From Hyphomonas sp. (lineage in GTDB: Bacteria; Pseudomonadota; Alphaproteobacteria; Caulobacterales; Hyphomonadaceae), in the NCBI GenBank assembly GCA_017792365.1, contig CP051229.1, positions 1,116,001 to 1,180,000 on the forward strand: a stretch of DNA of 64,000 nucleotides. Direction: 5' to 3'. This document shows positions 20,653 through 42,599 of this stretch, one piece after another (position 1 is the stretch's first letter; each line of letters begins with the position of its first letter). Below the pieces are notes generated by a model, which made no database searches, was not told where the DNA came from, and was given only the letters and a program-made list of their open reading frames with translations. Made by a program: the position numbers and the translations under genes.

Positions 20653-20853
20653 ATGGACGTTGCGCATCAGACAATCGCGAGGCCGTTGGCTGTCTCACCT
20701 GCGGAGGCAGCGCGTCTGATCGGGATCGGGCGCACCAAACTGTATGAGGCGCTCTCCAGCGGAGACTTGAGGTCCTTTCGCTTCGGACGGCGGCGGTTGA
20801 TCCGCGTGAGCGAACTCGAAGCCTGGATCAATTCGTTCGAAGATGCATCATGA
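20653..20853 (+). CDS. AlpA/excisionase-type helix-turn-helix protein
   Basis: The protein has 66 residues and is a MerR-like excisionase (HTH_17) fold: VSPAEAARLIGIGRTKLYEALSSGDLRSFRFGRRRLIRVSELEAWI. GGAGAA precedes the ATG. Such proteins act as recombination directionality factors or as activators of satellite integrase and replication genes (AlpA of P4-like elements). It overlaps the following primase by four bases (ATGA), so it is produced with the replication proteins. Confidence 0.82.
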   Translation: MDVAHQTIARPLAVSPAEAARLIGIGRTKLYEALSSGDLRSFRFGRRRLIRVSELEAWINSFEDAS

Positions 20854-21764: not shown

Positions 21765-23193
21765 CATCGGCTCGTTGGGCGTCGTGTCCGATTTGCTCAA
21801 ACCTGCGAATGGGCCGGATCCGATCATACTCGAAACAGGGTCAGACTCGGAAATTGCAGAGAAATTGGCCCAAAGGCTGCGTGCAGAGTTTTGCGACGTC
21901 ACCCAGTGCGAGGGCGATTTCTACATCTGGTCGAGCACGCATTGGCGGCTGTTTTCTGTCGAGCAACTGGTCGCGCGTGTCCGGGCCTTCGACGGCGCCC
22001 TGTATCCTACTGCTCGCGGATACGGCAAAGTCCGCCTCAATCGATCCCGGATCGAGAGTGCGATATTCATCCTGAGTAGCGCCTTAGCCGATCCAGCATT
22101 CTTCACGCACGCACCAGTGGGCGTGAACTGCCTGAATGGCTTCATCACCTTCAACCAGGACGGCACAACACTACTTGTTCCTCACGAGCCGGCGCAGCGC
22201 CAAAGACACGTTCTGCCGGGAAGTTGGTCCGGTGGGTCGGGCGCCCTGCCCGCCGAAAGCCTGCTGGCTCGGCTGCTCTCCGGGTGTTTCCGGGAAGATC
22301 CCGACGCGATTGAAAAGTCCGAGCTGCTGGCTGAAATTGCAGGCGCAGCTGCTCTTGGGATCGGCGCCCAGCTAGTGGAGCCCAAAGCCGTCATTCTTTA
22401 CGGACCATCCGCGGCGAATGGGAAATCGCAAGTCCTCAACCTGCTCCGTGCGCTGCTACCTGAGAGCGCCGTCGCCTCTATCAGTCCCCGCAAGATGGCG
22501 GACGACCGGTTCAGCGTGCATCTTGCCGGCAAGTTGCTCAACGCAAGTGATGAAATCGGCGACAAGGCGGTATTCGCTGAGGCGTTCAAGGCGGTCGTCA
22601 CCGGCGACTGGATATCCGGGCGTGATGTCTATCGCTCAATGGTGAAATTCAGACCGCGCGCGCTCAATGTTCTTTCCTGCAACCAGTTTCCGCTGTTCGA
22701 GGTGGGAATGGACGCCGGTGTTCGTCGTCGTTTGCTCGTAATTCCGTTCAATCGAACGATACCATTGCCGGAACGGATCGAGGGTATCGGAAATCAGATC
22801 GGCGCGGAGGAGGCGGATCTGCTTCTTGCATGGGCCGTTGCAGGCGCTTCAAGACTGATTGCCCGAGGCGCGTTTGCTGATCTCCCCTCCGGCCGGCAAG
22901 CCATCACCAACTGGATCGCTTTGACGGACCCCGTCGGTGGGTGGCTGCGTGACCGGGATGTCGTCGAGATCACTGGAGATCCGACCCATGTCGTTCCAGC
23001 CAAGATCGGATATCGCAGCTTTCGAGCATGGGCTGTAGCCGAAGGGATCCCCACAGTGAAAATCCCAATTCAAGGTCAGTTTACCCAGCGCGTTGCCTCC
23101 GCCGCGATCCGAGGCTTGGATTTTCGAAGGCGCGCCCGAACGAATGTCTTTGTCGGCATGCGCGTCAATCGCATCGATCCGTCCGACGGATGA
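21757..23193 (+). CDS. D5/P4-type primase-helicase (superfamily 3 helicase)
   Basis: The protein has 478 residues from ATG 21757, which overlaps the Toprim gene by eight bases. The N-terminal part resembles the D5_N region (FYIWSSTHWRLFSVEQLVARVRAF). The SF3 helicase core includes Walker A (VILYGPSAANGKSQVLNLL), a Walker B-like acidic stretch (LLNASDEIGD), and sensor region LNVLSCNQFP followed by GVRRRLLVIPFNRTIP. The C-terminus has a winged-helix-like segment. Such proteins drive replication of P4-like satellites and integrated plasmids. Confidence 0.87.
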   Translation: MPDIGSLGVVSDLLKPANGPDPIILETGSDSEIAEKLAQRLRAEFCDVTQCEGDFYIWSSTHWRLFSVEQLVARVRAFDGALYPTARGYGKVRLNRSRIESAIFILSSALADPAFFTHAPVGVNCLNGFITFNQDGTTLLVPHEPAQRQRHVLPGSWSGGSGALPAESLLARLLSGCFREDPDAIEKSELLAEIAGAAALGIGAQLVEPKAVILYGPSAANGKSQVLNLLRALLPESAVASISPRKMADDRFSVHLAGKLLNASDEIGDKAVFAEAFKAVVTGDWISGRDVYRSMVKFRPRALNVLSCNQFPLFEVGMDAGVRRRLLVIPFNRTIPLPERIEGIGNQIGAEEADLLLAWAVAGASRLIARGAFADLPSGRQAITNWIALTDPVGGWLRDRDVVEITGDPTHVVPAKIGYRSFRAWAVAEGIPTVKIPIQGQFTQRVASAAIRGLDFRRRARTNVFVGMRVNRIDPSDG

Positions 23194-25568: not shown

Positions 25569-28500
25569 TCAAACCGAGCGGTTCCTGAGACCACCTGCAA
25601 ACCAGCCGAAAGCGAGAAGAAGCGCGGCGACGCCTCCGACGAGTACCAGAACGCGCTGGGTTTCAGCCTCTGGTTGCGGCGCAGGCGGGGTCACATCCTC
25701 AATGGCCTTGCCGACCACGTCGGGCGCTGCGCCAGGCGCCGGAGCCGCTGTCGCCGCCTGCGCCAGAGCGGCATTGTAGGACGCCAGCAAGGGCGCAGCG
25801 TCCGGCAGGCTCGCCAGGGCTTCGCCGATGAACGCAGTCATCGCCGGATTGCGGCACTGGTTCGCTTCGCATGCCGGTCCGTGGTCAGCGACACTCTCCA
25901 CAAGCCTTCGGCGATCTGCGCCAGATCTTCGGCCGAAGCCTCCCACTGACCGCGTTGCGCCGCGCCGAGCAGGTTCGTCATCAGCATCTGGTGGGCGAAC
26001 GGATTTGCACGGTCAAAAAAGGCGTCCATGCCAAGATCAAGACTATCGTCCACGAAGACAGCCTTCACCTCCGCCCAATCCTCCGAGGACACTGTATCGG
26101 TTGCGGTTGTATCCCAGAGATCGAGGTTGTCGGTGAGGAACATGAAGTTGCGGGTGCCGTCATAGCCGTGCGCCTGATTTTCCTTGAGCCATTTCGGGTT
26201 GAAGTACCGCGTGCGCAATTCTGTCTGAATCGCCTTGGCCGCCGTCTGGATTTCCGGTTCAGAGAGATCCGCGAGGCTGCTGACGAACAGCTGCGTTTCT
26301 TCTCCGGTAATGTCCTTCTTTGCGAGATTAAGTCCACCCAAAAACCCGGCCGACATGGGCTGGTCGAGCATGCCGTTCACATCGCTCGTGCGCGGCAGCA
26401 CCGCCGCATCCATACCCGTCAGCGCACCCTTGAAGGCGTCTTCTGCGTGCTGCCCGTAGAGGCCGCCGCCATAGGCGTGGCTCATGCGCCGCGTGAACAA
26501 CTCCGCCATCTTGGCCTCATCGCCACGTTGCTCGCCGGACTTGGCCAGAAACTGATGCTTGGTGAGGCGCTGGGCGCGGTGAAAACACGCGGGCTGCCGC
26601 CAACAACCGCGCGTCCTTATCGCTGGCGCCGGACGCCTTGAGCTCATCGATTGCTGCGGACATCGCCTTGGCGACAGGGTTGTCGGCTTCCGGGCTTTCA
26701 CCAGCCAGCCGTGCGGCCTCGGTGATCAGTTCGACCTTGTCCTGATAATGGTCGCGATAGGTGCCGCTGGTGGTGATCAGGATATCGACCCTCGGCCGCC
26801 CAAGCTCTTCGCGCGGGATCAACTCGACACCGATCACCTCGCCGCGCCAGTTGCGCTTGAACCGGGCGCCGAGCAAGCGCATCGCCTGCGCCTCCGATAC
26901 GCCGTTCGTGCGCGCAATGTCAGCGGAAAAGAGAACGATCGCCAGCTTGTCCGGATAGGCGCCATCATTCTCGGCGCGATATGCGTCGATCAGCGCCTCG
27001 GCCTGGGTCGCACCGATATCCTCCGCCTCGGGCGTCGGCACGCGGCGCACATCGAAATTGTAGAGGATACGGCCGGGAGGCAGCGTGTCGGGTTTGCGAA
27101 ACGGCTCGCCCATCGGTCCGGGTTCGATCCACTCCGCATCAAGCGCCGCCAGAATGGCCTCGATCTCCCTGGGAGCGGTGTTCAAGGCGTCGACGTAGGC
27201 TGGCGCCAGCGCAAGCACAGCTTCGACGTCAGGCGCGCTTTGTTTCAATACTGCTTGCACTGCATCGCGGGGTGACTGTCCGTCATCAACAACGGCTTCG
27301 ACCAGTCTGCGCGCCACTGCGCGCACGGTCGATGTCTTCTCCTCCAGCACGGCGTCCAGATCGTTGCCCAACATTCCGGCGACCATCGCCGACATGGCTT
27401 CGCCCTGCGGCGCGTCACCGAGAATTTTTCCGCCCCACGGCATGTTGCTGGCGTCCAACTCATCGATGTAGTCGCCAGCCGCCGTCGCCAAAACGTCGAG
27501 CTCAGCGGCGTCGACGTCTATTTCCAGACCGCGCGACAATCCGGAGGCTTGCACTTCCCTTCTGATCGCGGCGTCGAAACCGGCCTTCTGGGCGTCCGGC
27601 GCGCCGTCATAGCGGTTGAGCAGAGCGCGCAGTTCGCCAACAGTCTCGCTGGCGTCGGAGGGCGTGACGATGTTGTACCATCCGGGCGTGAGCGCCATGC
27701 CCTTGCGTTTGTTGCTCAGGGCGCCGCTGGCCCCCAGACGCTCGGGATGAATATGCGGCAGACCTCCAAGTATGATGCCGATATGGTCATCCGCTAATGG
27801 GCCCTGAGATTTTCCAGGCTGCAGGACAATGTTGGAGAATTTGCTGACCCACGCATCCGCTTCCCATTCATTCTGAAGCCAGAGGAAGAAGGCGAGATAC
27901 TGGTGATGCGGCGGCAGCGCATCCTTGGACATCAGGACCTCTTCGTCCTCGAGATACCCCCACATCGGGTGCGGCGCGATCAGGATGTTACCGAACTCAA
28001 TGCGCGGTATGAGAATAACGGACTGGCCATCCGGCGTTCTGGAGACCATCGTCTTGCCGGGCGGCGGACCCCAGACGGCTTCGATCTCCCGGCGGCGCTC
28101 GACCGGCAACAGATTGTACCAGGAAAGGTATTGGGACAGCGGCACCAAGGCCGCCGAACCGTCCGCTGCGCGCTTCGCCAGCTCGCCCTGTGACCAGTTA
28201 CCGACATTGGAAGCTTCGCGCGACATGCGCTCCGCCAGCTGCTCGGCCGTCGGTAGCGGCGCATCTCCGAGGGAATAGCCAGCAGCGTTTAGTTCTGCGA
28301 GAACGCGTTGAAACGAACCGGGCACATCGAGAAAGTCGTCCGGATCTCCGCCGACATCTGACTTGCCGCCAGCCTCGCTCCAGTAGGTGAACACCACGCG
28401 CTTGTCGGCATTGTTCAACCGCCGCAGCTTCGCCCAAGCCAGGGCGCGCTCCACCCGCCACTCGATCTGATCCTCCATAGGGATGTATTGCCGGGTGCTG

Positions 28501-29504
28501 GAAGCTGGATCGACGCCTGCGATCGCCAGTGGCTCGAACTGGCCTTCCCATTCCGCATCCACGACGCGGCTGGTCATTTCTGGCGCCAGTCCGCCCGGCG
28601 AAGCGCGATAATCTTCCACCGAACCCTTCGCGAAAGGAATGCTCTGGAGAACCGGCACGCCGAGCTGACGGATCTGATCTACGCCGGCCTCGCGATCCCG
28701 AACATTGAGGCGCTCGCTGTCGTTCAGCAGCACATCGATAACCGGCTGCCCGTCCCTCATGAAAGGTGTGAAGTCTGCAGCCCCGGTCCTCAGAAGCGTG
28801 ACCGCCACGCCGCCCTGCGCTTCGATCTCGGAGATGAGCAGATCCAGAGCTGCAGTGTTTTCGTGGCGGTAGTAGACAATATAGCTTGAGAGGCCGACCG
28901 CGGGCTTCGCAGCGTCATACCTGACGCCATCCGACCGCTCGCCATACCAAGCCAGATATCCGTCGAGGTCATTGAACAGGCCTGAAGCGCTGGGGTGATA
29001 GAAGCCTTGCCTTGGATAGACGACTGGCTCAGCGGCTGACTTGCGCGCCTCCGCGCCCGTCACTGCTGATGCCAGGTAGCGGATCAACGCCGCATCATTC
29101 TCGACTGAGCGGTTGGCCCAGTAGACCGGGATATCAGCGTGATGAGCGATGTCGACATTGCCCTGCAGCGCGCCGTCCGGATTGACCACGACGAGCCTGG
29201 TCGATTGTGACAGCTGCGCGATCTCGGCCGCGCTCAACGCAAGTCCCTCCGCCGACCCGTCGATGAAGACGAGATCGTAGCCGTCGAGATCGCTGCCCGC
29301 GGTCAGCGCTTTGGCTGTCGGTTCAGCCGTAAAGATGTCCACGCTCGCGGCGTCCCGTGCCCGATCTGCACCCTTGCGCAGGTCTTCCGCCCCGTTCGAT
29401 TCCTTTGCTTCGAAAACGATCGCAATTTGCGGCTTGTCATGTTCGGCCGCGCACGCTGCCCCGAGCAGCAACAGACAGGCAGCGATCAGGAAACGGCAGG
29501 ACAT
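25569..29504 (-). CDS. Exported CobN/HmuS-like chelatase, module 1 (frameshifted; motif-degenerate)
   Basis: This giant CobN-family protein (about 1300 residues when joined) has an N-terminal export signal (MSCRFLIAACLLLLGAACA) and a C-terminal membrane helix (VLVLVGGVAALLLAFGWFAGG), so it should sit in the periplasm, unlike cytosolic CobN. The main frame covers 29504 to about 26570, a second frame continues (AKMAELFTRRMSHAYGGGLYG ...) to about 25870, and the first frame resumes (ACEANQCRNPAMTAFIGEAL) to 25569; both breaks look like indels. CobN marks kept: ELGRPRVDILITTSGTYRD and PHHQY (532-536). The position of the canonical HxGTHGTLEW motif instead reads VSKFSNIVLQPGK (553-565), so chelatase chemistry is probably altered. 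A C-x5-C pair lies near the end. It is last in its module, after DUF2149 and ExbB-like genes. Confidence 0.82.
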
Positions 29505-29515
29505 GTCAGCCTCGC

Positions 29516-29893
29516 TTACTGGGGAGGAGGGATTGTTGGCGGCGCTTCGCCTTCCGGCACGTAGACGACCTGTCCGTCAGGCAGTTGGTAGGCGATGCCG
29601 AGGCGCGTGCCCTGCCCTGACAGGTTGGTGTCGGTCACCCGCTGGACCTTGATGCTCTCGCGCGTCTTGGAAATGATCTCCATCGAACCGTCTGCGTTCG
29701 TCTTGACCAGCGTGGTGCTGCTTTCTGGATCCAGGAGGTCAGTCGAGGAAAAGAGCGTGAACAGAGCGATCAGCAGCGCCACGATGAAGGCGATGCTGAC
29801 GTCGAATAGATTGGCGAGGCCCGCCAACGGATCTTCGTCCTCGCCCGGCGGCGGCCCGTGCGACCCATAGCGGTGTCGGTGAACGAAGCGCAT
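29516..29893 (-). CDS. DUF2149 membrane protein, module 1
   Basis: The protein has 125 residues with a single transmembrane helix near the N-terminus preceded by the family mark EDPLAGLANLFDVSIAFIVALLIALF. A periplasmic domain ends in YQLPDGQVVYVPEGEAPP. DUF2149 proteins sit with CobN-like and ExbB-like genes in Hmu-type clusters; the layout of one N-terminal helix plus periplasmic domain recalls ExbD/TolR. It is four bases from the ExbB-like gene and 11 from the chelatase gene, supporting a three-component complex. Role as the ExbD-like partner is inferred. Confidence 0.83.
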   Translation of the reverse strand: MRFVHRHRYGSHGPPPGEDEDPLAGLANLFDVSIAFIVALLIALFTLFSSTDLLDPESSTTLVKTNADGSMEIISKTRESIKVQRVTDTNLSGQGTRLGIAYQLPDGQVVYVPEGEAPPTIPPPQ

Positions 29894-29896
29894 GGC

Positions 29897-30459
29897 TCAG
29901 ACCGCCCCCGCTACACCAGCGCCAGAAGGCGCGCTTCGCAACAATTCCTCAGCCCTGAAAGATAGCGTCTGTGCGTCCGATCTGACCCACGCCTCACGAG
30001 AAGCGGCGATGAGGTAAGCAATCACGCTTATCGCAAGTCCGATGACCGTGGCGGCGAATGCGGTGACCATGTTGCTCGCCAGAGCCGGCAGGTTGCCCTC
30101 CGCCAGACCGCGAAGCGCATAGGCCATCGGGATCAGGGTGCCCATCAGTCCCAGCGCCGGCCCGACGCGCACGGCCAGTCGTAACTGAGCCAGCGATCGC
30201 CATAGTCGCCGCTCCTCATCCTGCAGCGTCTTCTCGATCCGCAGGTCCAGCCCCTGTCCCGGATCTATGGCGGCGCTTTCATCAAGGCGCGCGAGGGCGG
30301 ATTCCAGACTGCGCCGATGGCCGCGATATCGATCGAAGGCTTCTCTCAGGTAGGCGCCAATCGTCACCGGATTGCCGCCGCAAGTCCGAGCAGGCCATGA
30401 CCCATCAATAACCCGGCCACGATGTGCAGCACTTCGCGGATTTGATCGATCGCAGTCAT
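29897..30459 (-). CDS. ExbB/TolQ/MotA-type proton channel subunit, module 1 (frameshifted)
   Basis: From ATG 30459 the protein starts MTAIDQIREVLHIVAGLLMGHGLLGLAAA, giving the first membrane helix, then shifts frame near 30375 to NPVTIGAYLREAFDRYRGH and continues to 29897. The hallmark RVGPALGLMGTLIPMAYALRGLAEGNLPALASNMVTAFAATVIGLAISVIAY shows the two C-terminal helices of the MotA/TolQ/ExbB family. About 187 residues. Such proteins use proton flow to energise an outer-membrane or periplasmic partner. It lies between the TonB-dependent receptor and the DUF2149 gene. Confidence 0.83.
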
Positions 30460-30525
30460 GGTCGCTCCGGCAGAGGTGAAACAATGTGGCGGTCTGCGGA
30501 GAACGCTCGCCGCAGACCGCCGCTG

Positions 30526-32644
30526 TCAGAAGTCCTGGCGGTATTCCACGAGGAAGTTGCGGCCGCGGAATGGGTAGTCGTTCTTTTCGTAGTAGTACTC
30601 GTCCGTGATGTTATCGAGCTTGAACAACAACTGGCTCGCGTCGTTGATCCGCCAGCCGGCAGTCAAATCGAAAACCAGAAAATCGGGGTATTCAAACGTT
30701 CCGCCAGCGCCGTTCGTAAATACCCGACCTGCGCTGAAATCCCTGTCCTCCATGCCCTGCACATGGCGGCCGCCTAACCGCGCCGAGTAGACACCATCGT
30801 CGTACCCGAAACCGAAGTTGACCTTGAACTCAGCGACGTTCCGGATTGTGCTTGGTCCGGTCGACAGCTCTTCTTCGCGTGTGAAATAGTAGGTTAGCGA
30901 GCCATCAGCCTCCCAGACGCGCTCGCGTCCACCGAACAGCCCTCCGATGTCGAACTGTCCCTGCGCCTCCAGACCTTCTGCGGTCGATCCCGACGCATTC
31001 TCGTAGCTGGTGACCCGCAACGCTGGCGTATTGGTGGTCAGCACTGACGAGATGCGGTTCTTCACGTCGAGCTTGAACAGCGTCAGGTCGATGCCGAACA
31101 TCATCCCGTCATATCCAACGCCGATGTCGTAGCTCTCGCTTTCCTCTGGTTCGAGACCCGGATTGCCTTCGGTGATCCGGACCTGCCCCCCGACGATCTG
31201 CTCAACGAAACCCGAAACCTGTGCGGGATCCGGCACGACGAAGCCGGTGCCAGCGCTTGCATGAATACGCCACGGGCCGTCGGCATCCGGTCGAAAGACA
31301 ATGCCCGCACGAGGATTGAATGTATCCAGCGTTGACGTGCCGGGTGAAAAGGTTCGGTTGTTGCCAAGCGACGTCAGCGTCTTTGTCTCGATCTCATCAA
31401 AGCGTCCGCCAGCGTTGAGTATCAGCCTGTCGTCAAACAGGCGCGCTGTGAGGTCGGCGAAAGCGCCGATCGTCTCGCGCTCGTAGTCAGGGGAGAAGGA
31501 GCCGCGCTGCGAACCGTCGGGATTGAAGAACGCCGAGGTCTCTTCAACGAGCTGATAGTCCGCGCCGATGATGAGATCGTAGTTGTCGCTCAGCGCCCAG
31601 TTGTCCTGGAGTTGCAATCCCTTCCAGTCGATATCGTTTGTTGAACTGAGAAACTGCTCCTGGCCAGGCGGCTTGTCTGAGTAGGACTGCGCCTCCGCTG
31701 TCTGGTAGTAGAGCGCCAGCAACTCGTGGGCGCCAACCGAACCGGTAAGCGAGATGTCGCCGCCAAAGTTGGATTCATCCTTGTCGCTCTGATTGCTCGT
31801 CCCATCGGACTCCGCGCCCGGGGTCTCACTGTCCGGCGCATCGAAGCCCAGCAGACGAACCTGTGCTTCCCAGTCGCCGCCCAGCTTGACGGCGGCCCTT
31901 GCGAAGATGTTGTTGTTCACGAACTCTGTGTTGGGCCTGTCCGCACCGTTGCCCTGCGTGAACGCGCCAAACGTTTCCCCTCCCGAGCCCAGCTCATAAT
32001 CGTCGCGTTGCGCCAGATGACTGAATGCAAGGTCGAAGTTGACCGCATCGCTGAGCTCGCCCCCGATTTGCGCACCGAGCTTTGTCGTATCGTAGCTGCC
32101 GTAACCGACGTTCACGCTGCCGCCGACCTCACCCTCTGATTTCCGGGTGATGTAGTTGACGACGCCGCCCATCGCGGACGCCCCGTAGATCGCTGATGCA
32201 GAGCCCTTCAGAACTTCAACGCGCCAAGCCGGCGGTTGCGATGTTGCCCATGCTCTCGGCGCCCGCCGGACGACCGTCTATGAGCACCAGTACGCGCTTG
32301 TTGGTGCCCGAAAACTCCGGCCGAAATCCGCGAAGGCCGACGCCGGCCAACCCGCCAGGATACTGGATCACATCGACGGACGAGTTCTTCTTCAGCACAT
32401 CCGTGATGTCGACGCCGGTGGTGTTGAGGAGGTCGTCCTCGTTGATGACCTCAATCGTGGCTGGGATGTCCGCGATGTTCTGTTCCGCACGGCTGGCTGT
32501 GACCACGACGGTTTCCCGCGATCCCTCAGAATCCGGACCCGACTGCGCGCTCGCCACCCCCCCTGATGCAGCCGCGGCGGCCGCTGACAGAACCAGTGTC
32601 GCGCCGACCCCTCGAAAAAGTCTTGCTTTTAGCATGTTTGACAT
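30526..32644 (-). CDS. TonB-dependent outer-membrane receptor, module 1 (frameshifted)
   Basis: The signal peptide ends around ASGGVASA. The plug domain begins ETVVVTASRAEQNIADIP, the TonB-box-like region of BtuB/CirA-type receptors, with DDLLNTTGVDITDVLKK and VLVLIDGRPAGAE. The frame breaks near 32225 and resumes as AWRVEVLKGSASAIYGASAMGGVVNYITRK. The barrel ends with aromatic F (NFLVEYRQDF). Total about 705 residues. The EGNPGLEPEESESYDIG segment corresponds to the NPNL region of haem and cobalamin receptors; the upstream FRAP-like position reads FVVPDPAQ, so a haem motif is not intact. It is first in an operon with ExbB, DUF2149 and the CobN-like protein, so its ligand is likely a metal complex or tetrapyrrole. 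Confidence 0.87.
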
Positions 32645-32667: not shown

Positions 32668-32681
32668 CGTTACGTTATAAC
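32668..32681. promoter_or_regulatory. Candidate Zur-like site upstream of the module 1 receptor
   Basis: CGTTACGTTATAAC contains the palindrome GTTATAAC (32674-32681); the extended TACGTTATAACATA differs by one base from a symmetrical TATGTTATAACATA, close to zinc-uptake-regulator boxes of proteobacteria. It ends 24 bases upstream of the receptor start codon, where a repressor would block transcription. One site only; the call is tentative. Confidence 0.4.
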
Positions 32682-32814
32682 ATAGTCCAGTCGCTTCCGC
32701 GTTTTCCTGGATGCGAGTTGTCCCATCCGAACTGTCGAATTGAGCTTGAGCGTGCGCCTGCCCAGAAAACCGGACAGTCCATGGCAAAAATGAGCGGCTC
32801 GGCGCAGTCAAGGC

Positions 32815-32852
32815 GTTTACCGTGACCGTTACCGTTACGGCGACGTTACAGG
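32815..32852. promoter_or_regulatory. GTTAC-repeat element upstream of the module 1 receptor
   Basis: Within 38 bases ACCGT(G/T)AC-type units recur: TTACCGTGAC, ACCGTTAC twice in a row, and GACGTTACAGG. A related TTACCGTTACAGG ... CGTTAC lies upstream of the module 2 receptor. In both places the element is preceded (plus strand) by ATGAGCGGCTC. Shared binding of a regulator is inferred. Confidence 0.45.
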
Positions 32853-32910: not shown

Positions 32911-34137
32911 CTATCGGTCCGGCTGTTTGAACTGCGACTGCAGAAGCGTCGAATGGGCCGTAGAGGATACGACCGAGCCATGGCCGACTTCGGAGAGAGA
33001 GACGTACTCGTTCCAGACAACTGCCCAACCGGTGCCGAATCGGCGGATCGCCGGGATCGATGACTGCTCGGCAGTGTGTGTCAGGCGCCGGATATTCGAA
33101 GCCGGTGCGCCGGTTCGGTCGAAGATCCGGGCGTAGAGTTCACCCTGGCCCTGGTCGCGGTCGGACCAGACGAGCGCGAGATCCTTGTCGCCGAACGCGA
33201 GATAGGCCCCAATTGATGCGGCCGCGGTGTGGCTCACGCGGTGGGATTCAGTCGCCTTCTGGATGACCGCGTCGATCGTTGCGCCTGCGCGCAGATAGAC
33301 TTCCCGGTTCCCATCCCGCTCGTCGAACCAGGTGAGCGCAGCCTCTCCATTCTTTCCGATGGCGATGTCCGGGTAGAGTGATGCGAAGCCATCGTCTGAA
33401 GACATCTGCGTTTGTACGGCGTCGCCGTTTGCGATTGCGATATGCTGCAACTCGTTCCGGGCGTTTCCCAGACCCGCATCGAACACAATGTGAAATACGC
33501 CGTCGCCTCCGACGGCCGCGTTCAGATTCCACGTGTCGCGACTGGCTGCGCCGGATTGCAAAGCGTCGCCGAGGAACTCGCCATCCGGGGACATTTGGAC
33601 GCTCCACACCTCGGCTTCTTGCGATACTGCGTCCGCGTCCTGTTCGATCCATGCGACAGCGAGGGCGTCGTCGACCGCCCGCACCACGGGGTTGCGCGTG
33701 ACCCGGTGCCGCTCGCCCAAGCGCTGGCGCCAACGCTTCTGACCTTCGATCGAAAATCGCCCGACCCACGCGCTTAGCGCGCTGGTGCGCATGTCCTTCT
33801 CGTACCAAGCCACGATGACATCGCCGTCCATGAGCAGAAGATCTGGTTCATAGGCGTGGTGCGGACCGGTCGTGATGCGAACCGGTGCGCCCCGCGTCTT
33901 TCCGGCGGGCGTCAGGAGCTGCAGGAAGATCGAATCTGGCGCTTCATATCCGCCGTGCCAGCCGGCGAGGAGCGTCTCACCATCTGTCGCGAGAGACAGT
34001 TCGTAGGCCGTCATGCCCGGAGGGCTAATAGTGCTGACGACCTGATCTGTCTGAAGTGAAGCGCATGCCGCCGCACAAGACGCTAGGGCGGCTAAAATCG
34101 CCAGCCGCAGGCCATCAGGCGCCCCGGGCAACGACAC
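32911..34137 (-). CDS. Beta-propeller-like lipoprotein downstream of the module 2 chelatase
   Basis: The protein has 408 residues from GTG 34137, with a signal peptide and lipobox (LAALASCAAACAS). The body has repeated Asp-rich blade-like units of sialidase/WD type, each with a W or F followed by D: DGDVIVAWYEKD, DALAVAWIEQDAD, GEAALTWFDERDGNREVYLRAG, KDLALVWSDRDQGQGELYARIFD, GWAVVWNEYVS. It probably folds as a beta-propeller tethered to a membrane facing the periplasm or outside. It overlaps the end of the module 2 chelatase gene by 23 bases, implying co-translation and a role in the same system. No enzyme motif recognised. Confidence 0.75.
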   Translation of the reverse strand: MSLPGAPDGLRLAILAALASCAAACASLQTDQVVSTISPPGMTAYELSLATDGETLLAGWHGGYEAPDSIFLQLLTPAGKTRGAPVRITTGPHHAYEPDLLLMDGDVIVAWYEKDMRTSALSAWVGRFSIEGQKRWRQRLGERHRVTRNPVVRAVDDALAVAWIEQDADAVSQEAEVWSVQMSPDGEFLGDALQSGAASRDTWNLNAAVGGDGVFHIVFDAGLGNARNELQHIAIANGDAVQTQMSSDDGFASLYPDIAIGKNGEAALTWFDERDGNREVYLRAGATIDAVIQKATESHRVSHTAAASIGAYLAFGDKDLALVWSDRDQGQGELYARIFDRTGAPASNIRRLTHTAEQSSIPAIRRFGTGWAVVWNEYVSLSEVGHGSVVSSTAHSTLLQSQFKQPDR

Positions 34138-37100
34138 CCCGCCAGCGCCAGGCCGCCATCAACCCGATCAGCGCGACGACCGGCCATGCGAAATCCCATC
34201 TCGTCATGGGCCGATACTCGCTTGTCTGCATTTCCGGCTGCTGCTGTGAACGGTCGATCTCTTCCATCACATACCCTTGGTCTTCCGCCATCGCCTGCGC
34301 CGCAGCCAACTCGGGAGCGCCCTGCAGATCGGGAAGCTCCGCAATCGCATCCGTCGGCGCGGATGTGCCGGGGCGCTGAGAGCGCTCCAAGGCATCGTTG
34401 CGGTTGGCGAATGTGCGCAGATCTGCAGCCGCAACCTCAATCGACTGCTCCATCGCGCCCTCGAACGCAGCACGCGCAGCTTCAATGTCAGGGGTTGGCA
34501 CCCCGACCTTGACGGCCTCGTCCATCACGTATTCGAGCAACCTCGCGTTCTCGCAGGTGACTGCGGAGCAACCGGCGCCGTGCTCGTTGACGTTGTCGAT
34601 GAACTCGCGAATGAGGGTGGCCTTTGTCGCTTCATCCGCCGCCCAGTAGTCCTTGCGGACGGTTTCGATCATCCGCGCCGTGATATCCTGGTATGCGAAG
34701 GGCGAGTTTTCCTCGAAGTATTCCTTCATGCCCATGTCGTGCTTGTCTTCAACGTAGACTTCGAAGGTTTCCTGCCACATGGCGTCATCAACGGCGGTGG
34801 TGATGGTTGCATCCCAGCCCCACAGGTACTCCACGAACTCACGCATCGCGGCGGCGCCGGCATAGCCCTCCTTCTGCATGCCTTCGATCCAGGTGGGGTT
34901 CACGTAGCGAGACCGGAACTCCTGCCCGATGAACTTGTCGAGCCCGGTCATCTGCGGATTGCCCGGGTCGCGCGTGTTGGTGACGACCGCGTCAGGCGTG
35001 GTGCCGTCTATGCTCCGCACAGCAGATGCGAGGCCGCCCATGTACATGAACATGTCGTCGTTATCGAGCGAGCCGTAGAGCATCGTCGAACTGGAATGAA
35101 CGACCTTCTCAACACCAGAAAGGTTCAGCCGGAAGACATCGGCCATCTCCTCGCCCCAGAATCCGTTGCCGAACCCGTGGCCCATCTTGCGGATGTAGTC
35201 GTTGGCGAAACCGGCTTCGTCATCCCACGAACCACTGGCGGACACGATGTTCGACGTATTGAGGTTGTATGTGCCGGGCGGCTCGTCGAAGATTCTCACG
35301 CCAGCAAGCTTGTCGGCCTCTTCCGGCGAGCGACCCAGAGCGATCAGCGCCTCCCGTGTCTCTAGATAGTGTTTGCGGACAAGGTTGTCGGCTTCCTCCA
35401 GCGCCTTCACGCGTTGCACGGCCTCGTCCATCAGCCGCGTCACGTTGCCGAACAGTCCCTCTGCGGCCGACGCAATGACGATGTCCACACGCGGTCGGCC
35501 CAGTTCGCGGCGCGGAATGACTTCCACGCCCACGACCTTGCCGCGCGCATCCCAAACCGGGCGGGTGCCGAGCAAGTGGAAGATCTGTGACTCCAGAACG
35601 CCCTCATGGCGCATCGTCTCGTCGCCCCATATGACGAACGAGACTTTTTCGGGATACGCGCCGTGTTCCTTGAGATGGTCGGCCAGCATCTGGTCAGCGA
35701 GCTTCACACCCATCTTGTAGGCGGCCGGCTTTGGCACCTTGTCAGGATCGATCCCGTAGAAGTTCTTGCCAGTCGGGTAGGCGTCCGGATTGCGGATGGG
35801 TTCCCCGCCGCTCCCGGCCGGCAGGAACTCGCCGGATAGGGCCGCGACAAGACTCTCGAGCTCGCGCGTGGCGCCAGTCCGGATGCGATCTTCCATGTCC
35901 GCAGAAAAAACCTTGCGCTCATCGGGCAGTTGCGATCGGTCCGCGCTGACCACGGCGTCCACCGTACTGGCGATCGCGTCATCCTCCGGCGTGCGACCAA
36001 AGGCGTGAAGGCCGTATGGGATCAGCTGCTCCTTGAGTTCGGCCAGATAATCCTCGATCTCGTGGATCTGCCGGTGGCTGATCTTGCTGTCGAGCTCGAG
36101 ACCGAGATCCTTGGCGATCCCCATCTCGACGATCTGAGTGCGCAGCTCGTCGTGATAAGCCTGCGCCAGCTCCGGGTTCTTGGACTCGTTGCGGTGGTGG
36201 TCGTTGATCAGCTCGGACAGCTTTGCGAGCTCTTCGGTCAGGCCGCCCTTCACGAATGGCGGCACCATATGGTCCACCAGCATCGCCGCGCCGCGCCGCC
36301 GCGCAACCAACCCTTCACCGACGACGTCCACATTGTAGATGTAAATGTCCGGCAGATCCGCGATCAGCGCATCGGGCGCATCTTCCGGGCTCAGTCCCGC
36401 GTCGCGACCATCCAGCCATTCCAGGGTGCCATGCGTGCCGACATGGACAACAGCGTCGGCCTTCAGGCCGTCACGCAGCCATTTGTACACCGCAACATAC
36501 TGGTGATGCGGCGCCAAGTCCTTCGCGTGGTAGAGCTTTACGAGATCCTCGCCCCATGCGCGCGACGGCTGAGGCGTAAGTGTGATCTTGCCGTACTGGA
36601 CGACTGGAACGATCAGCGACGCGTTGCGACCTTCGCCAATGGTCATCAACTCGCCATCAGCCGGGTCGCCCCAGTCGCTCGTGATCTTGTCGCGCAGGAC
36701 GGGCGCATACCCCTTCAACCAGCCCTCATATTGAGAGACGGGGATCCGGACGGCGTTGCCGGCGGCGATCATTTCGTTCAGCTCACCAGGCGCGGCGCTC
36801 GAAACGTTGCGCGCCTTTTCGGTGATGTCGGCGAGCACCTTGTCGGTTGAGGGCGGAGCGCCGCCAACGTCAAAGCCTTCCGCGTGCATCTTGGCCAGCA
36901 TGTTCGCCATCGTCTCGGCTACGTTGAGGTAGCTCGCCCCGATGCTCGCCTTGCCCGGCGGGTAGTTGTAGTAGAGCACCGCCACGGACTTGTCGGCGTT
37001 GGCCTTGCGCCGCAGTTCGGCGTACTTCAGCCCTCGCCGCACCGCGAGATCGACCTGGGACAGGACGGGCGATGTGATGACGGCGTTGATGCCAGTCAAC

Positions 37101-38134
37101 GGATCACGCACCTTCTCTTTCGTTCCCACCACAGTTGGCGCCACCGTCCCGACCAGTTCAGGCGTGGCGAGGTTGAATGTACCTTCGAACATCGAAAGGC
37201 CTGTTCGCGAGGTCCTCCAGTCTTCCTCGCTGCGGCCATAGAGCGTGATCAGATTGAGGGCCGGTACATTGACCTCATCAAGCCGCTTCCAGGCATCGCT
37301 GTCCGCGAACATGAAATTGAGACCAAGGATCACGTCGACGCGCGGCGTGCCGTCCTGGTTGAGCAAGAGCCGCTGTGCGCCCACGTCGCCGGGATAGCCA
37401 AAATAGGGTACGGCGACGGCGCCTGCTTCTTCGATCGAGGCGATCAGCGCATCGATCAGGGCGATGTCCCCGCTGTAATAGGCCGCCTTGAAGAACCCGA
37501 CGCCAACGCTTGGTGCATCTGCCTTCGCTTTTCCGTTGGAGCGCCGCCACTGATCGAACTCGTTCCACGTCTCGAACACACGTCCGTCGCCGCCGTCGGG
37601 ATAATAGTATCCGTAGTTCAGCGATGGCTGCGGATTGGGCAGCTTCAGGCCATCAACGCCGGCCCGGCTCAGCGCCAGCTTCATCAGGCCCAGTTGATTT
37701 GAGGACCCGCCATTCTGCCAGTAAGCCTGCGCGCGATTGTCCAGAACCGCGCCCTGTCCTTCATAAATCTCCGAGCCAACGAGGCCGACGCCTACCGCCA
37801 GTACAGCGCCATCCGCCGCAACCGTCGGGATGATGTCGATGTCGTGCTGATCGTTAAACTGACCGAGCATCTGCTCGTTCATCATGTCGAACACGAGCAC
37901 ATCAAGGGACGTCATCTCCTCGGGCTCGATATCCGCCACCGAGCTCTCAGACATCAGGACGAGCTCGACCTCGCCGCGCAGCTCCGGGTGTTCGCGCACC
38001 AAAGCCTGGAACGCGCTGAGGGTTCCGGGGAGGTTGCCATCGGAAAACACATAGCCGAGGCGCACAGGCTCCGCGTTGGCGAGGCCAGTTGAAGCGAGAG
38101 CCGCCAGAAAGAGACTAAGGAGCCGGATCAGCAA
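34115..38134 (-). CDS. Exported CobN/HmuS-like chelatase, module 2
   Basis: The protein has 1339 residues from TTG 38134, chosen because GGAGGAGG lies at 38141-38148 and the start gives a clean Sec signal (MLIRLLSLFLAALASTGLANA). A C-terminal helix (FAWPVVALIGLMAAWRW) anchors it. CobN-family marks are intact: PHHQY (542-546), HVGTHGTLEW (564-573), FVIWGDETMRHEG, LLGTRPVWDARGKV, ELGRPRVDIVIASAAEG, and HSSSTMLYGSLDNDD. Near the C-terminus GCSAVTCEN carries two Cys that align with a pair in module 1. True CobN is cytosolic and works with CobS/CobT; neither is encoded here, and export plus the ExbB/DUF2149 neighbours fit the HmuS group, for which haem dechelation has been reported in Bacteroides. 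Metal-tetrapyrrole (de)chelation is inferred. Confidence 0.87.
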   Translation of the reverse strand: MLIRLLSLFLAALASTGLANAEPVRLGYVFSDGNLPGTLSAFQALVREHPELRGEVELVLMSESSVADIEPEEMTSLDVLVFDMMNEQMLGQFNDQHDIDIIPTVAADGAVLAVGVGLVGSEIYEGQGAVLDNRAQAYWQNGGSSNQLGLMKLALSRAGVDGLKLPNPQPSLNYGYYYPDGGDGRVFETWNEFDQWRRSNGKAKADAPSVGVGFFKAAYYSGDIALIDALIASIEEAGAVAVPYFGYPGDVGAQRLLLNQDGTPRVDVILGLNFMFADSDAWKRLDEVNVPALNLITLYGRSEEDWRTSRTGLSMFEGTFNLATPELVGTVAPTVVGTKEKVRDPLTGINAVITSPVLSQVDLAVRRGLKYAELRRKANADKSVAVLYYNYPPGKASIGASYLNVAETMANMLAKMHAEGFDVGGAPPSTDKVLADITEKARNVSSAAPGELNEMIAAGNAVRIPVSQYEGWLKGYAPVLRDKITSDWGDPADGELMTIGEGRNASLIVPVVQYGKITLTPQPSRAWGEDLVKLYHAKDLAPHHQYVAVYKWLRDGLKADAVVHVGTHGTLEWLDGRDAGLSPEDAPDALIADLPDIYIYNVDVVGEGLVARRRGAAMLVDHMVPPFVKGGLTEELAKLSELINDHHRNESKNPELAQAYHDELRTQIVEMGIAKDLGLELDSKISHRQIHEIEDYLAELKEQLIPYGLHAFGRTPEDDAIASTVDAVVSADRSQLPDERKVFSADMEDRIRTGATRELESLVAALSGEFLPAGSGGEPIRNPDAYPTGKNFYGIDPDKVPKPAAYKMGVKLADQMLADHLKEHGAYPEKVSFVIWGDETMRHEGVLESQIFHLLGTRPVWDARGKVVGVEVIPRRELGRPRVDIVIASAAEGLFGNVTRLMDEAVQRVKALEEADNLVRKHYLETREALIALGRSPEEADKLAGVRIFDEPPGTYNLNTSNIVSASGSWDDEAGFANDYIRKMGHGFGNGFWGEEMADVFRLNLSGVEKVVHSSSTMLYGSLDNDDMFMYMGGLASAVRSIDGTTPDAVVTNTRDPGNPQMTGLDKFIGQEFRSRYVNPTWIEGMQKEGYAGAAAMREFVEYLWGWDATITTAVDDAMWQETFEVYVEDKHDMGMKEYFEENSPFAYQDITARMIETVRKDYWAADEATKATLIREFIDNVNEHGAGCSAVTCENARLLEYVMDEAVKVGVPTPDIEAARAAFEGAMEQSIEVAAADLRTFANRNDALERSQRPGTSAPTDAIAELPDLQGAPELAAAQAMAEDQGYVMEEIDRSQQQPEMQTSEYRPMTRWDFAWPVVALIGLMAAWRWRGVVARGA

Positions 38135-38495
38135 TCTCGCCCTCCTCCGCGCCAGCACCTTCGGCGTCCGGCACATAGATGATCTGCCCGTTGGCCAGGC
38201 GATAGGCTGTGCCGAGCCTCTCGCCATCGCCCTCTCCGGTCTGCCCCGTCAGCTTGTAGGCGGTGATTTCCTGTCCCTGCTTGACGATGATTTCCTGCTC
38301 GCCCTGCGCGTTGGTCTTGACCATTGTGACCTCGCTGTCGGGATCCATCAGGTCGCCCATATTGTAGACGGAGAATAGCGAGATCATCAGGCCAACGATG
38401 AACACGATGGACACGTCGAACAGGTTCGCGACGCTCGCGAGCGGATCCTCCTCCGCGACCTCCTCGGGGGGCGCAAGCTTCAGGAAGCGTCCCAT
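38115..38495 (-). CDS. DUF2149 membrane protein, module 2
   Basis: The protein has 126 residues with one N-terminal membrane helix in the family signature EEDPLASVANLFDVSIVFIVGLMISLFSVYNMGDLMDPDSEVTMVK, then a periplasmic domain ending AYRLANGQIIYVPDAEG. It closely parallels the module 1 copy. Its ATG shares a base with the ExbB stop (TGATG) and its end overlaps the chelatase start by 20 bases, so the three genes are tightly coupled. An ExbD-like role is inferred. Confidence 0.86.
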   Translation of the reverse strand: MGRFLKLAPPEEVAEEDPLASVANLFDVSIVFIVGLMISLFSVYNMGDLMDPDSEVTMVKTNAQGEQEIIVKQGQEITAYKLTGQTGEGDGERLGTAYRLANGQIIYVPDAEGAGAEEGEIADPAP

Positions 38496-39115
38496 CAGCG
38501 ATCTTCCATTTCGGCCACAACGACCTCGGCCAGATAGCGCTGCTCGCGGATCGTGGCTTCAACCCAGGTCTGACGCATCGCCACCAGCGCATAGGCGATC
38601 GTGCCTGTGGCCAGACCTACGATCGTCGTTGTAAACGCCACGACCATCTGACCGGCCATCGCCTGCAAATTGCCTGCAGCCATGGCCGCGAGCGAGCTCC
38701 CCATCGGGATCAGCGTGCCAATCAGTCCAAGGCTGGGGCCGATCTTCACGAGCGCTCTTGGACCGAGCAATTCCTTGCGAAGCCGCTCTTCGTGTTCGGC
38801 GACCGCATTCTCCAGCCCGCCGTGCTTCAGGGACCCCGCCTGATGAAGGGCCTGCACGGACGCCAGCAAGCTGCGCAGGGGGGCTGGCAGTTTCGATGTG
38901 CGGTCATCTCCGGCTTTCAGGACCTCGCCCTGCTGCAGCCACTGCCTGATATTGAACCCGTCGTGTTCTGACCGACGGCGGATCGCGAGGACAAGCGACT
39001 GGCCAACAAAGTAGAGCGTGAATCCCACACAGACCCAAAGGAGCGCCATGACGGGGAAGCGCAGCACCTGCCCCAGCGCGAAGAGACCGTTTTCCAGAGC
39101 ACCAAGCAGGTTCAT
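38495..39115 (-). CDS. ExbB/TolQ/MotA-type proton channel subunit, module 2
   Basis: The protein has 206 residues from ATG 39115, which overlaps the stop of the upstream membrane-protein gene (ATGA). The first helix is FPVMALLWVCVGFTLYFVGQSLVLAI; the ExbB core KIGPSLGLIGTLIPMGSSLAAMAAGNLQAMAGQMVVAFTTTIVGLATGTIAYAL carries the conserved GP-LGL-GTLIPM and Thr residues of the channel family. The copy is intact, unlike module 1. It probably forms a proton-driven complex with the DUF2149 protein to energise either TonB-like action on the receptor or the periplasmic chelatase. Confidence 0.87.
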   Translation of the reverse strand: MNLLGALENGLFALGQVLRFPVMALLWVCVGFTLYFVGQSLVLAIRRRSEHDGFNIRQWLQQGEVLKAGDDRTSKLPAPLRSLLASVQALHQAGSLKHGGLENAVAEHEERLRKELLGPRALVKIGPSLGLIGTLIPMGSSLAAMAAGNLQAMAGQMVVAFTTTIVGLATGTIAYALVAMRQTWVEATIREQRYLAEVVVAEMEDR

Positions 39116-39702
39116 TTCGTTTTCCATACACCGCGCAGCACGCCAGCTGCGATCGCCACTATCGCGAACAGAGCCGCCCAGACCGGCACGCTGATCGCTT
39201 CCGCTTCCACAAAAGTTCGATTGAGCGCTTCGGCCGAGCGCCAGCCGTCTATCACACCTGCAACGGTTGCAAACACGACCGACGCACCTGCAACGCAGGC
39301 AAGCGTCCATCCGGCGCCGCGGGTCGAGATCGTCGTCGACTTGCGGAAAACCAGAACGGCGAGCGCGAGCAGCGCGATAGATGCGCCGATTGCGAGCGGG
39401 AGCCCGGCGCCGCTCGCACTGAACAGACTTGCCGCCAGCCCCGCAAACAGCCCCGCGAAGCCCGCACTCTGGTTATGGCCCAGCGGCCGCAGTACGGCCC
39501 ACATGGCAGCAATTGCGAGCAACCCGGCAATCCATTCCGGTTGCGGCATCAACCACATTGTCGCCGCGCCCGCAGCAATGCCAAATGCCGCTAACGCGAT
39601 CGCCAGGCTCCTCACATTTCTTGAACCTGCAGAACCGAAGACAACGGCTGCAATCATGCAGGCGAGCCAGGTGGCCGATATGATGAACGGCGGAGAACTC
39701 AT
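39112..39702 (-). CDS. Polytopic membrane protein of the module 2 cluster
   Basis: The protein has 196 residues from ATG 39702 and six to seven predicted membrane helices (for example FIISATWLACMIAAVVFG, NVRSLAIALAAFGIAAGAA, WIAGLLAIAAMWAVL, LPLAIGASIALLALAVLVF, VPVWAALFAIVAIAAGVL). No family recognised. It is coupled by ATGA overlap to the ExbB gene and has no counterpart in module 1. It could be the inner-membrane transporter for the released metal or ligand, which is inference from position. Confidence 0.75.
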   Translation of the reverse strand: MSSPPFIISATWLACMIAAVVFGSAGSRNVRSLAIALAAFGIAAGAATMWLMPQPEWIAGLLAIAAMWAVLRPLGHNQSAGFAGLFAGLAASLFSASGAGLPLAIGASIALLALAVLVFRKSTTISTRGAGWTLACVAGASVVFATVAGVIDGWRSAEALNRTFVEAEAISVPVWAALFAIVAIAAGVLRGVWKTK

Positions 39703-40477: not shown

Positions 40478-42473
40478 CTAGTTCGTCTTGTCCATCTTGA
40501 AGCGAAGACCGACGTAGACTGCCGAGCCCGGTGTGGCGTAGCCCCGTACCTCCTCGTAATCCTCATCAGTGACGTTCTCGACGCGGCCATAGACTTCGAC
40601 CTGATCGTTCACCTGATAGCTGATCGCAGCCCGAAGCAGCGTGTAGGCGTCGAGCGTGGTTTTCACAGGCGAGAACCCGCCGGTGAAATCATTGTCGAGC
40701 TGTTCGCCATTGTATGTCACGCCGAGCGTCAGCTGGCCGCGGCTTTCCATGAAACGGAAATTGGCGTCGAGGCTGGCGAGGTTTTCCGGGCGCCGGACTT
40801 CGGGAGTGCCGTTCGGATCGGTGGATTCCACATAGGTATAGGAGCCGATCAGGTCGATATTGTCAGTCGGGAAGATCCGGAATGACGCCTCGACACCTTC
40901 GCGGTCGCTCTCGCCGGTATCGTTGACCGGGGTGCCGATGAAGGTCGGCGGCGGGAACGCCGTCATGATCTCGTTTTCAAGCGTTGACTGGAAATAGGTC
41001 AGATCGACGACTGCGAGACCGTTGGCGAACGTTTGTTCAATGCCAGCATCCCAGCCGAACGCCTCCTCGGGTTGAAGGTCCGGATTGCCCATGTAAGTGC
41101 CGGGGTTGAACCCGAACTGTTCAAAGAAGGTAGGATTGGTGACGCCAGTCCCGGCGCTGGCATGCAGACGTGCCCCCGAGTTCGGTATGACCCACGATGC
41201 CGATGCGCCATAGGTCTGCACATCTTCAAAGTCTTCGTTGTCGTCGTGCCGCGCTGTCGCCAGCAGATAGAACTGATCGGCAATTTCGGCGCGGTACTGG
41301 ACGCCGAGACCGAGCAGGTTTCTTTCCTGCTCATCCGCCTGGGCGGGCGAGAACGGCATCGTGTTGCGGTATGTCTCGTTCTCGTGGTCCGCAAATCCCG
41401 TCAGGTAGCTGAGGAAGCCGGGGCCGCCGAACTGGAACGTGGACTGGACTGAGAAATTGGTGCGCGAGGACTCGCTGCCGAACGTTCCGCCATCGGTTTC
41501 ACTGTCGGTGTAGGACGTCGAGGCGATCGTCTCCCAGACACCATCCATGAGCGTAAGCGTCGCGTCGCCGGCGATGTTGAAATCCTGGGTGTCGCTGAAA
41601 CTCGCGTCATCGAATGTTCGACCCTGGCGACCCGGAATGCCGGAGAAGTCGAAGCCGTCCAGATCGGAGCTCTTGTCCACATAGCGTGCGAATCCGCCAA
41701 CCTTGAAGACAGGAGACAGCGCTGCGCCGGCACGGAGGTACAGCGTTGCGACTTCGTTGCCTTCCTTGTCGCCGTCGATAGACGGCGGGCCGTTGAACGC
41801 GCCTGCTTCCGAGCTGTCAAACCCTTCGGTCTCGAGGAACGTGAACCCGGCCGAGAAATAGTTGCGGCCGTCGCCGAGGCCGCCGCTCGCCTGAAGTTGC
41901 TGGGTGTCGAACGAACCGACCTCGGCCGCCGAATTGAAGTAATATCCGTTCGTTTCGCGCTTGGTGATGATGTTGATCACGCCGGCAAGCGCGTTAGAGC
42001 CGTAAAGGCCGCTTTGCGGGCCGCGAAGCACCTCGATGCGCTCGACATCACCGGAAAGCAGCGTCGAGGTCTGTTTCACCGCTTCCGGCGGCGGAGATAT
42101 CGACGCCGTCGAGCAGAACCAGCGTGTGGTTGCCTTCGGCGCCTCGAATGCGCACCGCCGTCAGACCGCCGAACGGCCCCGTGCGACTGACCGCCAGACC
42201 CGGGATCTGCCGAAGCGCGTCAGAAACATAATTGTATCCGCCGTCCTCAAGCTGCTCGCTGGTGAACACGCTGATGGAGTTGCCAACCTTCTCGAACTCG
42301 ATCGGAACCGCCGCGGCGGTGACGACCACGACTTCGCGCTCACGTACTTCGGCGCTGGTTTGCGCAGCGGCTGCGCCGGTCACGATCGCCGCCAGAGCGG
42401 TTCCGAACGCCAGCTTCCCCCAAGCCGACACATACCCCTGATATTTGCTCAACTCGCCTTTGCTCCCTGACAA
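40478..42473 (-). CDS. TonB-dependent outer-membrane receptor, module 2 (frameshifted)
   Basis: The N-terminus is a signal (AWGKLAFGTALAAIVTGAAAAQ) followed by the plug (REREVVVVTAAAVPIEFEKVGNSISVFTSEQLED, IPGLAVSRTGPFGGLTAVRIRGAEGNHTLVLLDGVDI). The frame breaks near 42070 and resumes LLSGDVERIEVLRGPQSGLYGSNALAGVINIITKRE. The barrel ends VYVGLRFKMDKTN. About 665 residues, BtuB/CirA-like in length and plug motifs, with a MGNPDLQPEEAFGWDAG segment at the NPNL position. The start is uncertain: TTG at 42473, a later TTG (SKYQGY) or GTG (SAWGK) are possible. It heads the module 2 gene set. Confidence 0.86.
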
Positions 42474-42572: not shown

Positions 42573-42599
42573 TTACCGTTACAGGCTGCGTTACAATTG
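42573..42599. promoter_or_regulatory. GTTAC-repeat element upstream of the module 2 receptor
   Basis: TTACCGTTACAGG is followed by GCGTTACAATTG, 100 bases upstream of the receptor start. It matches the ACCGTTAC units and GTTACAGG of the module 1 element. Candidate binding site for a regulator common to the two modules. Confidence 0.45.

Follow-up and report, generated by a model that had tools for sequence, protein, structure and literature searches.

A conserved motif-less branch of CobN/HmuS-like proteins in a putatively zinc-regulated TonB uptake module of Hyphomonas sp.

The hmu operon of Bacteroidota comprises a receptor, the CobN-like HmuS, the ExbB-like HmuU, and the DUF2149 protein HmuV (PMC10434189, PMC13227078). 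In Pseudomonas aeruginosa, the genes PA1922-1925 (receptor, CobN-like, ExbD, and DUF2149) belong to the Zur regulon and are strongly induced in a znuA mutant (PMC4542158, PMC9431628, PMC8531726, PMC11761036), and a review calls PA1922-25 a suspected import machinery for non-chelated zinc (PMC10393844). In the study of HmuS (PMC12583661), the HFG(T/A)HG motif with its catalytic His is described as strictly conserved across the chelatase superfamily and Glu577 as the partner of the catalytic His538; the H538A protein still binds heme, and most remaining superfamily sequences are described as not yet reliably annotatable. A 64,000-nucleotide stretch of Hyphomonas sp. (contig CP051229.1, positions 1,116,001 to 1,180,000; "the window") was analyzed, which carries two modules in tandem on the minus strand with gene sets that resemble the hmu operon. 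The subject of this report is the CobN/HmuS-like protein of module 1, in which the superfamily motif is replaced; all module features are given in window coordinates and lie on the minus strand.

The main open frame of this gene (26517..29504) encodes 995 amino acids with, by eye, a signal-peptide-like N-terminus. The protein was identified as a member of PF02514 (CobN/ChlH/HmuS; 594.7 bits against a Pfam gathering cut-off of 24.5), and its best match in the PDB was HmuS (9d26, E 6.7e-129). PHHQY, residues 532-536, is followed by ADAWVSKFSNIVLQPGKSQG, and W-V-S-K-F-S-N-I-V-L-Q (W552 to Q562; 27819..27851, from DNA reading and alignment) stands at the columns of HmuS H534, H538, and E542 in place of H-x-G-T-H-G-T-L-E-W. 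In the module 2 protein (34115..38227, profile match), which served as comparison, PHHQY is followed by ADAVVHVGTHGTLEWLDGRD, that is, by an intact HVGTHGTLEW. The loss of both His and the Glu, as proposed in the initial annotation, is real and was seen in the translation, the DNA, and the alignments; the translation likewise bore out that ELGRPRVD and YRD are kept. The equal spacing after PHHQY described there held up to the motif and failed beyond it, because the alignment opens a gap of 2 residues just past the lost motif and one of 1 residue at the GEG Glu. The frame at the site was found unbroken, as claimed, with an open frame across 27700-27990 and, by eye, no alternative frame that restores the motif. 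A frame slip at the motif was ruled out because orthologues of other genomes carry the same replacement, and the claim that this is not a sequencing slip stands for the same reason.

All five sequences that cover the site lack the motif, with both His and the Glu: the window protein, L027 (labelled Accumulibacter, 54% identity to module 1), L028 and its near-copy L029 (labelled Pirellula, 48% identity), and the protein L033 of the complete genome G609. Retention of the His motif in orthologues, which would have spoken against the initial annotation, was found in none of them. The four orthologues have A-D-A-W-V-S-x-F-(S/T)-N-(I/L)-V-L-Q at the motif place; a 69% identical fragment in G285 ends short of it. 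In a 31-row alignment of CobN, BchH, HmuS, module 2, and other CobN-like proteins, the 27 rows outside the branch all keep the motif with both His, so that the HFG(T/A)HG pattern is missing from 5/5 branch sequences and both of its His are present in 27/27 others. The duplicates L017 and L030 and the near-copy L029 were left out of the 27-row comparison and the tree, and L020, a 353-aa fragment, does not reach the motif. Four motif columns hold His, Gly, His, and Glu in 27/27 others versus Ser, Phe, Asn, and Gln in the branch. The Glu of the GEG/SEA/GEA segment (HmuS Glu577) is deleted in all five branch sequences. Directly before this deletion lies the subfamily-specific H586-P-E-R-L-G591 (27732..27749, from the alignment) at the superfamily Y-x-(Y/F); its H586, E588, and R589 replace Tyr, Tyr/Phe, and mainly Ile or Ala of the other rows. 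The new residues W-V-S and H-P-E-R are common to branch members.

A quick version of a phylogenetic tree, in which HmuS is a long branch, placed the motif-less sequences on one side of an edge with an SH-like approximate likelihood ratio (SH-aLRT) of 100 and a long stem (1.16); their sister relation was weak (support 80). As read from these alignments and this tree, the replacement in module 1 is ancestral, and the branch that contains module 1 is a real one, conserved and rebuilt, within the chelatase superfamily. Searches of open-access literature on HmuS, CobN-like proteins, DUF2149, and the Zur regulon brought up no account of a branch without the motif. The data set of PMC12583661 may contain this branch unlabelled, because most remaining superfamily sequences lack reliable annotation there.

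Other residues of HmuS were also compared, with residue numbers counted by hand along the alignments. The site 1 heme ligands Met79 and His254 have no counterpart and were aligned with Ser and Glu of the A1 profile consensus, and the His506 column is Ser in the branch. The LSLDHxxEFMGG segment with His1209 is absent, its column being Met or Gln. Four of the five branch sequences have LDH two residues before that column, where the window has LDQ; equating this LDH with His1209 was rejected, since an ungapped alignment shows the 2-residue offset. The methionine-rich insertion is missing, about 180 HmuS residues (650-832) facing 16 profile positions. A true HmuS orthologue was rejected on these residues.

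The remainder of module 1 consists of a DUF2149 protein (HmuV-like; 29516..29893, PF09919, 91.9 bits), a MotA/TolQ/ExbB-like protein (HmuU-like; 29897..30484, PF01618, 54.2 bits), and a TonB-dependent receptor, with its barrel part at 30526..32172 (profile matches and homology) and its N-terminus and plug, in a different frame, at 32216..32644 (homology). The order receptor-ExbB-DUF2149-CobN is found in the window, G285, and G609. The order ExbB-DUF2149-CobN is found in both Pirellula-labelled loci, and an ExbB-like gene follows in L027; in L027, L028, and L029, a receptor gene was not identified next to the orthologue.

A Zur-type box, TGTTATAACGTAACG (32668..32682), lies 23 bp before the receptor ATG at 32644. 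It matches two published Zur consensuses, GTTA-N5-TAAC, which has been applied to Caulobacter and further proteobacteria (PMC4176598), and GWWAYWNNNTWHCR, applied to Pseudomonas (PMC10393844). GTTA-N5-TAAC has one exact match in the window (32669-32681, in the module 1 promoter; 0.08 expected), one in the 8 kb of G285, ahead of the orthologous module's receptor (0.01 expected), and none in 280 kb sampled elsewhere in the Hyphomonas genome. Matches to GWWAYWNNNTWHCR in the window (at 32668), in 18 kb of G609, and in the 8 kb of G285 (in the last as two overlapping registers) occur only at the module box, and the 280 kb from elsewhere in the Hyphomonas genome hold one. A Zur-type box thus precedes the module in 3/3 loci with a receptor gene seen upstream (window, G609, and G285), which lends indirect support to the different metal considered in the initial annotation. 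The box was first spotted by eye as Zur-like, and early searches used a consensus of our own; these searches and the matrix are partly circular because the boxes came from a module-derived pattern and were picked for zinc context. With this partly circular matrix the module site ranked first in 344 kb (score 13.2; next independent position 6.2), and weight was therefore placed on the two published consensuses.

Elsewhere in the Hyphomonas genome, published-consensus sites precede an ABC-FtsX-DUF3299-MerC/ZrgA gene string, an M3 peptidase, a methyltransferase/receptor pair, and a further receptor. In G609 such sites precede ZrgA, DUF1826, and a short-chain dehydrogenase, and in G285 a ZnuD-like receptor, DUF1826, and one more receptor. 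The Pfam name of ZrgA marks it as a zinc-uptake family, and DUF1826 occurs in Zur-regulated COG0523 clusters (PMC2770081). Two Hyphomonas sites gave no zinc hint, one at 1457133 before an HGSNAT protein and one at 2543048, which was not examined. The genome encodes a FUR-family protein (L107) with Zur as best NCBIfam match (89.2 bits, cut-off 167); FUR (Zur-like), ZigA (587 bits, cut-off 600), and DUF1826 genes are adjacent, and the 12-kb stretch that contains them also holds two sites. As a separate observation, L109:427-1506 (minus) is one open frame in which a ZrgA zinc-uptake domain comes after a MerC domain; ABC/FtsX genes and a Zur-type box lie upstream of it.

These boxes in the DNA of three genomes are what suggests zinc regulation of module 1. 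Zinc acquisition is considered the most likely function, and the gene is probably not broken but codes for a rebuilt protein of zinc uptake. On balance, we favor a zinc-starvation-induced, TonB-driven uptake unit with a rebuilt CobN/HmuS-like protein, a reading put at somewhat better than even. The unit would consist of the outer-membrane receptor, the ExbB-like/DUF2149 motor pair, and the membrane-anchored periplasmic CobN/HmuS-like protein, in whose conserved branch the catalytic cleft would have been rebuilt. Under zinc shortage Zur would let go, the receptor would import zinc or a zinc chelate, and the CobN-like protein would take the cargo into its cleft. There, either zinc would be released by H-P-E-R and neighboring residues, or the cargo would merely be bound and handed on. 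Without the His538-Glu577 dyad, the bis-His iron-removal chemistry proposed for HmuS would not be usable. A more specific proposal, which we regard as tentative and rather doubtful, is a new zinc-specific class of the chelatase fold, in which the W-V-S-x-F-(S/T)-N loop and H-P-E-R replace the His/Glu dyad and, in the periplasm of zinc-starved cells, would take Zn(II) out of a zinc chelate brought in from outside, perhaps a zinc tetrapyrrole.

Several results weigh against the zinc-uptake reading. The G609 box has one mismatch to GTTA-N5-TAAC, and such one-mismatch places are not rare in its 18 kb (3 versus 0.59 expected). No box was found near the orthologues L027, L028, and L029, save one match to the Pseudomonas consensus at position 594 of L028, some 900 bases upstream of the ExbB gene. 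With up to 2 mismatches, our own pattern was enriched over its backwards control in the Hyphomonas genome (10/7) and G609 (8/4) and was not enriched in G285 (20/25), G1006 (2/4), G1007 (13/75), and G1008 (10/47); many such sites are therefore chance. Sites before the ZIP gene, the MerC gene, and the FUR(Zur)/ZigA pair match neither published consensus, and Zur control of PA1922 is, according to the review, seemingly unique to P. aeruginosa in its genus (PMC10393844). An AlphaFold model of L027 had a mean predicted local distance difference test (pLDDT) score of 42 and was not used, which leaves the new residues unplaced in space. The window gene is moreover frame-broken in its last third, and the module receptors score best, below cut-off, as heme/haemoglobin type.

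The last point bears on a heme route, an uptake module in which the CobN-like member binds or passes on heme or a porphyrin without iron removal. Its receptors match TIGR01785 (heme/haemoglobin) best, at 135.5 bits for the window barrel, 232.7 for G609, and 202.2 for G285 (cut-off 316.85), its gene set is hmu-like, and HmuS H538A retains heme binding (PMC12583661). This explanation is considered unlikely, given that the heme site 1 ligands Met79 and His254 are missing too and that a zinc box precedes the receptor. The heme-type match of the module 1 receptor is below cut-off, and the ZnuD-like receptor of G285 has the heme families next in rank, so that the receptor match does not decide the cargo.

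The distribution of the branch was surveyed in genome samples that overlap in part. Beyond the Hyphomonas genome, clear members were found in 1/384 genomes of the class sample (G285) and in 1/397 genomes of the phylum sample (G609); seven further matches in the former, about 30% identical, and four further genomes in the latter, at 503-593 bits, keep the motif. At E <= 1e-180, no branch member was found in the other 243 genomes of the order of G609, in the other 368 genomes of its class, or in the other 396 genomes of the class of G1007, where G1406 lay above threshold and kept the motif. A genome-collection scan gave three loci. Among family and order relatives 11/61 genomes matched, the Hyphomonas genome included; identity outside it was 29-31%, and the matches viewed were CobN/BchH-like with the motif. 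All 70 plasmid records were below 60% identity (24-30% among the 20 matches listed). The branch is rare and patchy, and its presence in both Pseudomonadota and Planctomycetota, as the metagenome-assembled genomes are labelled, suggests transfer.

The same survey bears on the proposal of the initial annotation that an active and a binding or scaffolding chelatase divide the labor. In G609 (100% complete, 0 contamination) and in the Pirellula-labelled G1007 and G1008 (completeness unstated), the motif-less protein was the sole PF02514 protein found; G1006 has two canonical CobN proteins besides it, and the Hyphomonas genome has one canonical sister, module 2. Because no other PF02514 protein was found in those three of the five genomes, the motif-less protein seems not to need a canonical sister, and the proposal was abandoned as a general rule. 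For this genome, module 1 as the non-catalytic partner of an active module 2 is regarded as improbable: the modules stand side by side with GTAACGGTAA-type repeats in both promoter regions, but module 1 has its own box and its own ExbB/DUF2149 pair, and the two receptors best match different cargo types.

A decaying pseudogene or a sequence-error artefact would account for the frame changes in the gene and its receptor. The coordinates 25569-29504 of the initial annotation do not form one open frame: the open reading frame (ORF) ends at 26517, and three pieces in changing frames show homology to L027 (29429-26550; 26554-25901, 71% identity; 25910-25638, 36%). The second lies in a continuation at 25901..26554, and a C-terminal remainder after another frame change (25569..25910) has, by eye, a hydrophobic anchor-like end. 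The receptor changes frame near 32220. The frame changes leave the motif site untouched. A codon-usage scan, in which a frame abandonment was a frame left more than 24 bp before its stop, gave 34 abandonments in 344 kb of the Hyphomonas genome (window and 14 stretches) versus 6 in 200 kb of the same-family genome G012; at more than 45 bp, a threshold set after seeing the result, 25 versus 0 were counted from the scan list. The abandonments in this genome, for example at 25904, 26586, 42087, and 48481 of the window, point to an indel-prone assembly. The frame changes are most likely assembly indels. As an explanation of module 1, decay or error is considered very improbable, even with LDQ in the window for LDH in the orthologues, since orthologues with intact frames carry the same motif replacement, abandonments are spread over the sampled genome, and the shifted part still codes for 71% identity to L027.

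Cobalt or corrinoid handling by a CobN-derived protein for cobamides, to which the family name and the B12-type best match of the module 2 receptor would point, is equally improbable, with no cobalamin riboswitch at gathering threshold in window 20000-50000 or six related loci and TIGR02257 (CobN) scores far below the cut-off of 822.05 (249.1 for the truncated window frame; 363.3, 358.1, and 368.8 for the full-length orthologues L027, L029, and L045).

Module 2 further comprises a DUF2149 protein (38115..38495, PF09919, 107.8 bits), an ExbB-like protein (38495..39310, profile match), and a TonB-dependent receptor (40478..42079, profile match) with a BtuB/B12-type best NCBIfam match below cut-off. 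Its CobN/HmuS-like protein keeps the His of HxGTHG and has Asp at the HmuS His1209 column, like the CobN row L071; module 2 is perhaps a corrinoid-side relative, its receptor being best matched by B12-type models. Between the modules lies a 408-aa lipoprotein-like ORF (32911-34137) with a weak PDIAV lipoprotein match (26.7 bits, cut-off 90). Repeats of GTAACGGTAA type were found at 32817-32838, 42573-42582, and 42829-42838 (minus); at up to 1 mismatch the window holds 5 (0.52 expected; a count of 5 was reached in 0/100 shuffles), every one located in the promoter region of one or the other module receptor. Only 4 exact copies occur in the genome (backwards control 1), of which a third one precedes another TonB receptor (L131), and the repeats may be a second shared operator. 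Toprim/DUF7146 and DUF5906 genes (20850-23193) and a phage-type integrase (45638-46849) flank both modules as possible mobile-element remains.

A conserved motif-less clade in which the partner Glu is lost too provides the catalytic model with a natural control, and it suggests other uses to which the chelatase fold can be put. The zinc box would tie a poorly understood PA1922-25-like gene set (CobN-like, ExbB, and DUF2149) to zinc rather than to cobalt or heme, and this link makes the role of these CobN-like proteins directly testable.

Among known systems, HmuS of Bacteroides thetaiotaomicron (PDB 9d26, PMC12583661) is of the same superfamily and, like module 1 (by eye), of the membrane-anchored periplasmic type, with receptor, ExbB-like (HmuU), and DUF2149 (HmuV) partners; for module 1 this is a putative operon. 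Module 1 differs in lacking His534, His538, Glu542, Glu577, His506, Met79, His254, and His1209 as well as the Met-rich insertion, and in its gene order and zinc box. CobN cobaltochelatase and the Mg-chelatase ChlH/BchH share PF02514 and an ELGRPRVD-type segment with it; unlike module 1, their sampled rows keep HxGxHGxxE and the GEG/SEA-type Glu, and module 1 and its orthologues fall below the CobN and ChlH/BchH equivalog cut-offs. BtuS1 and BtuS2 of Bacteroides fragilis (PMC6460266), set beside it by published description, are CobN-like and differ by a heme function, being implicated in taking iron from heme. PA1922-PA1925, under Zur according to the papers cited above, has receptor, CobN-like, ExbD-type, and DUF2149 genes like module 1, in the order receptor-CobN-ExbD-DUF2149 as against receptor-ExbB-DUF2149-CobN. 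Two loci of the PA1922 order, L124 (G194) and L123 (G324), have a published-consensus box in the start region of the receptor and retain the His motif, PA1923 itself not being among the rows; L119, L121, and L122 gave no match to a published-consensus box. The motif in L123 and L124 (receptor-CobN-ExbB-DUF2149) reads HLGTHGTQEW or HFGTHGTQEW, and in L124 another exact box follows the DUF2149 gene, at 10971. There thus seem to be two forms of zinc-linked CobN-like proteins, with module 1 in the motif-less one. In our reading, module 1 represents a new and rebuilt branch of putatively Zur-controlled TonB-receptor/ExbB/DUF2149/CobN-like zinc-acquisition systems, related to PA1922-25.

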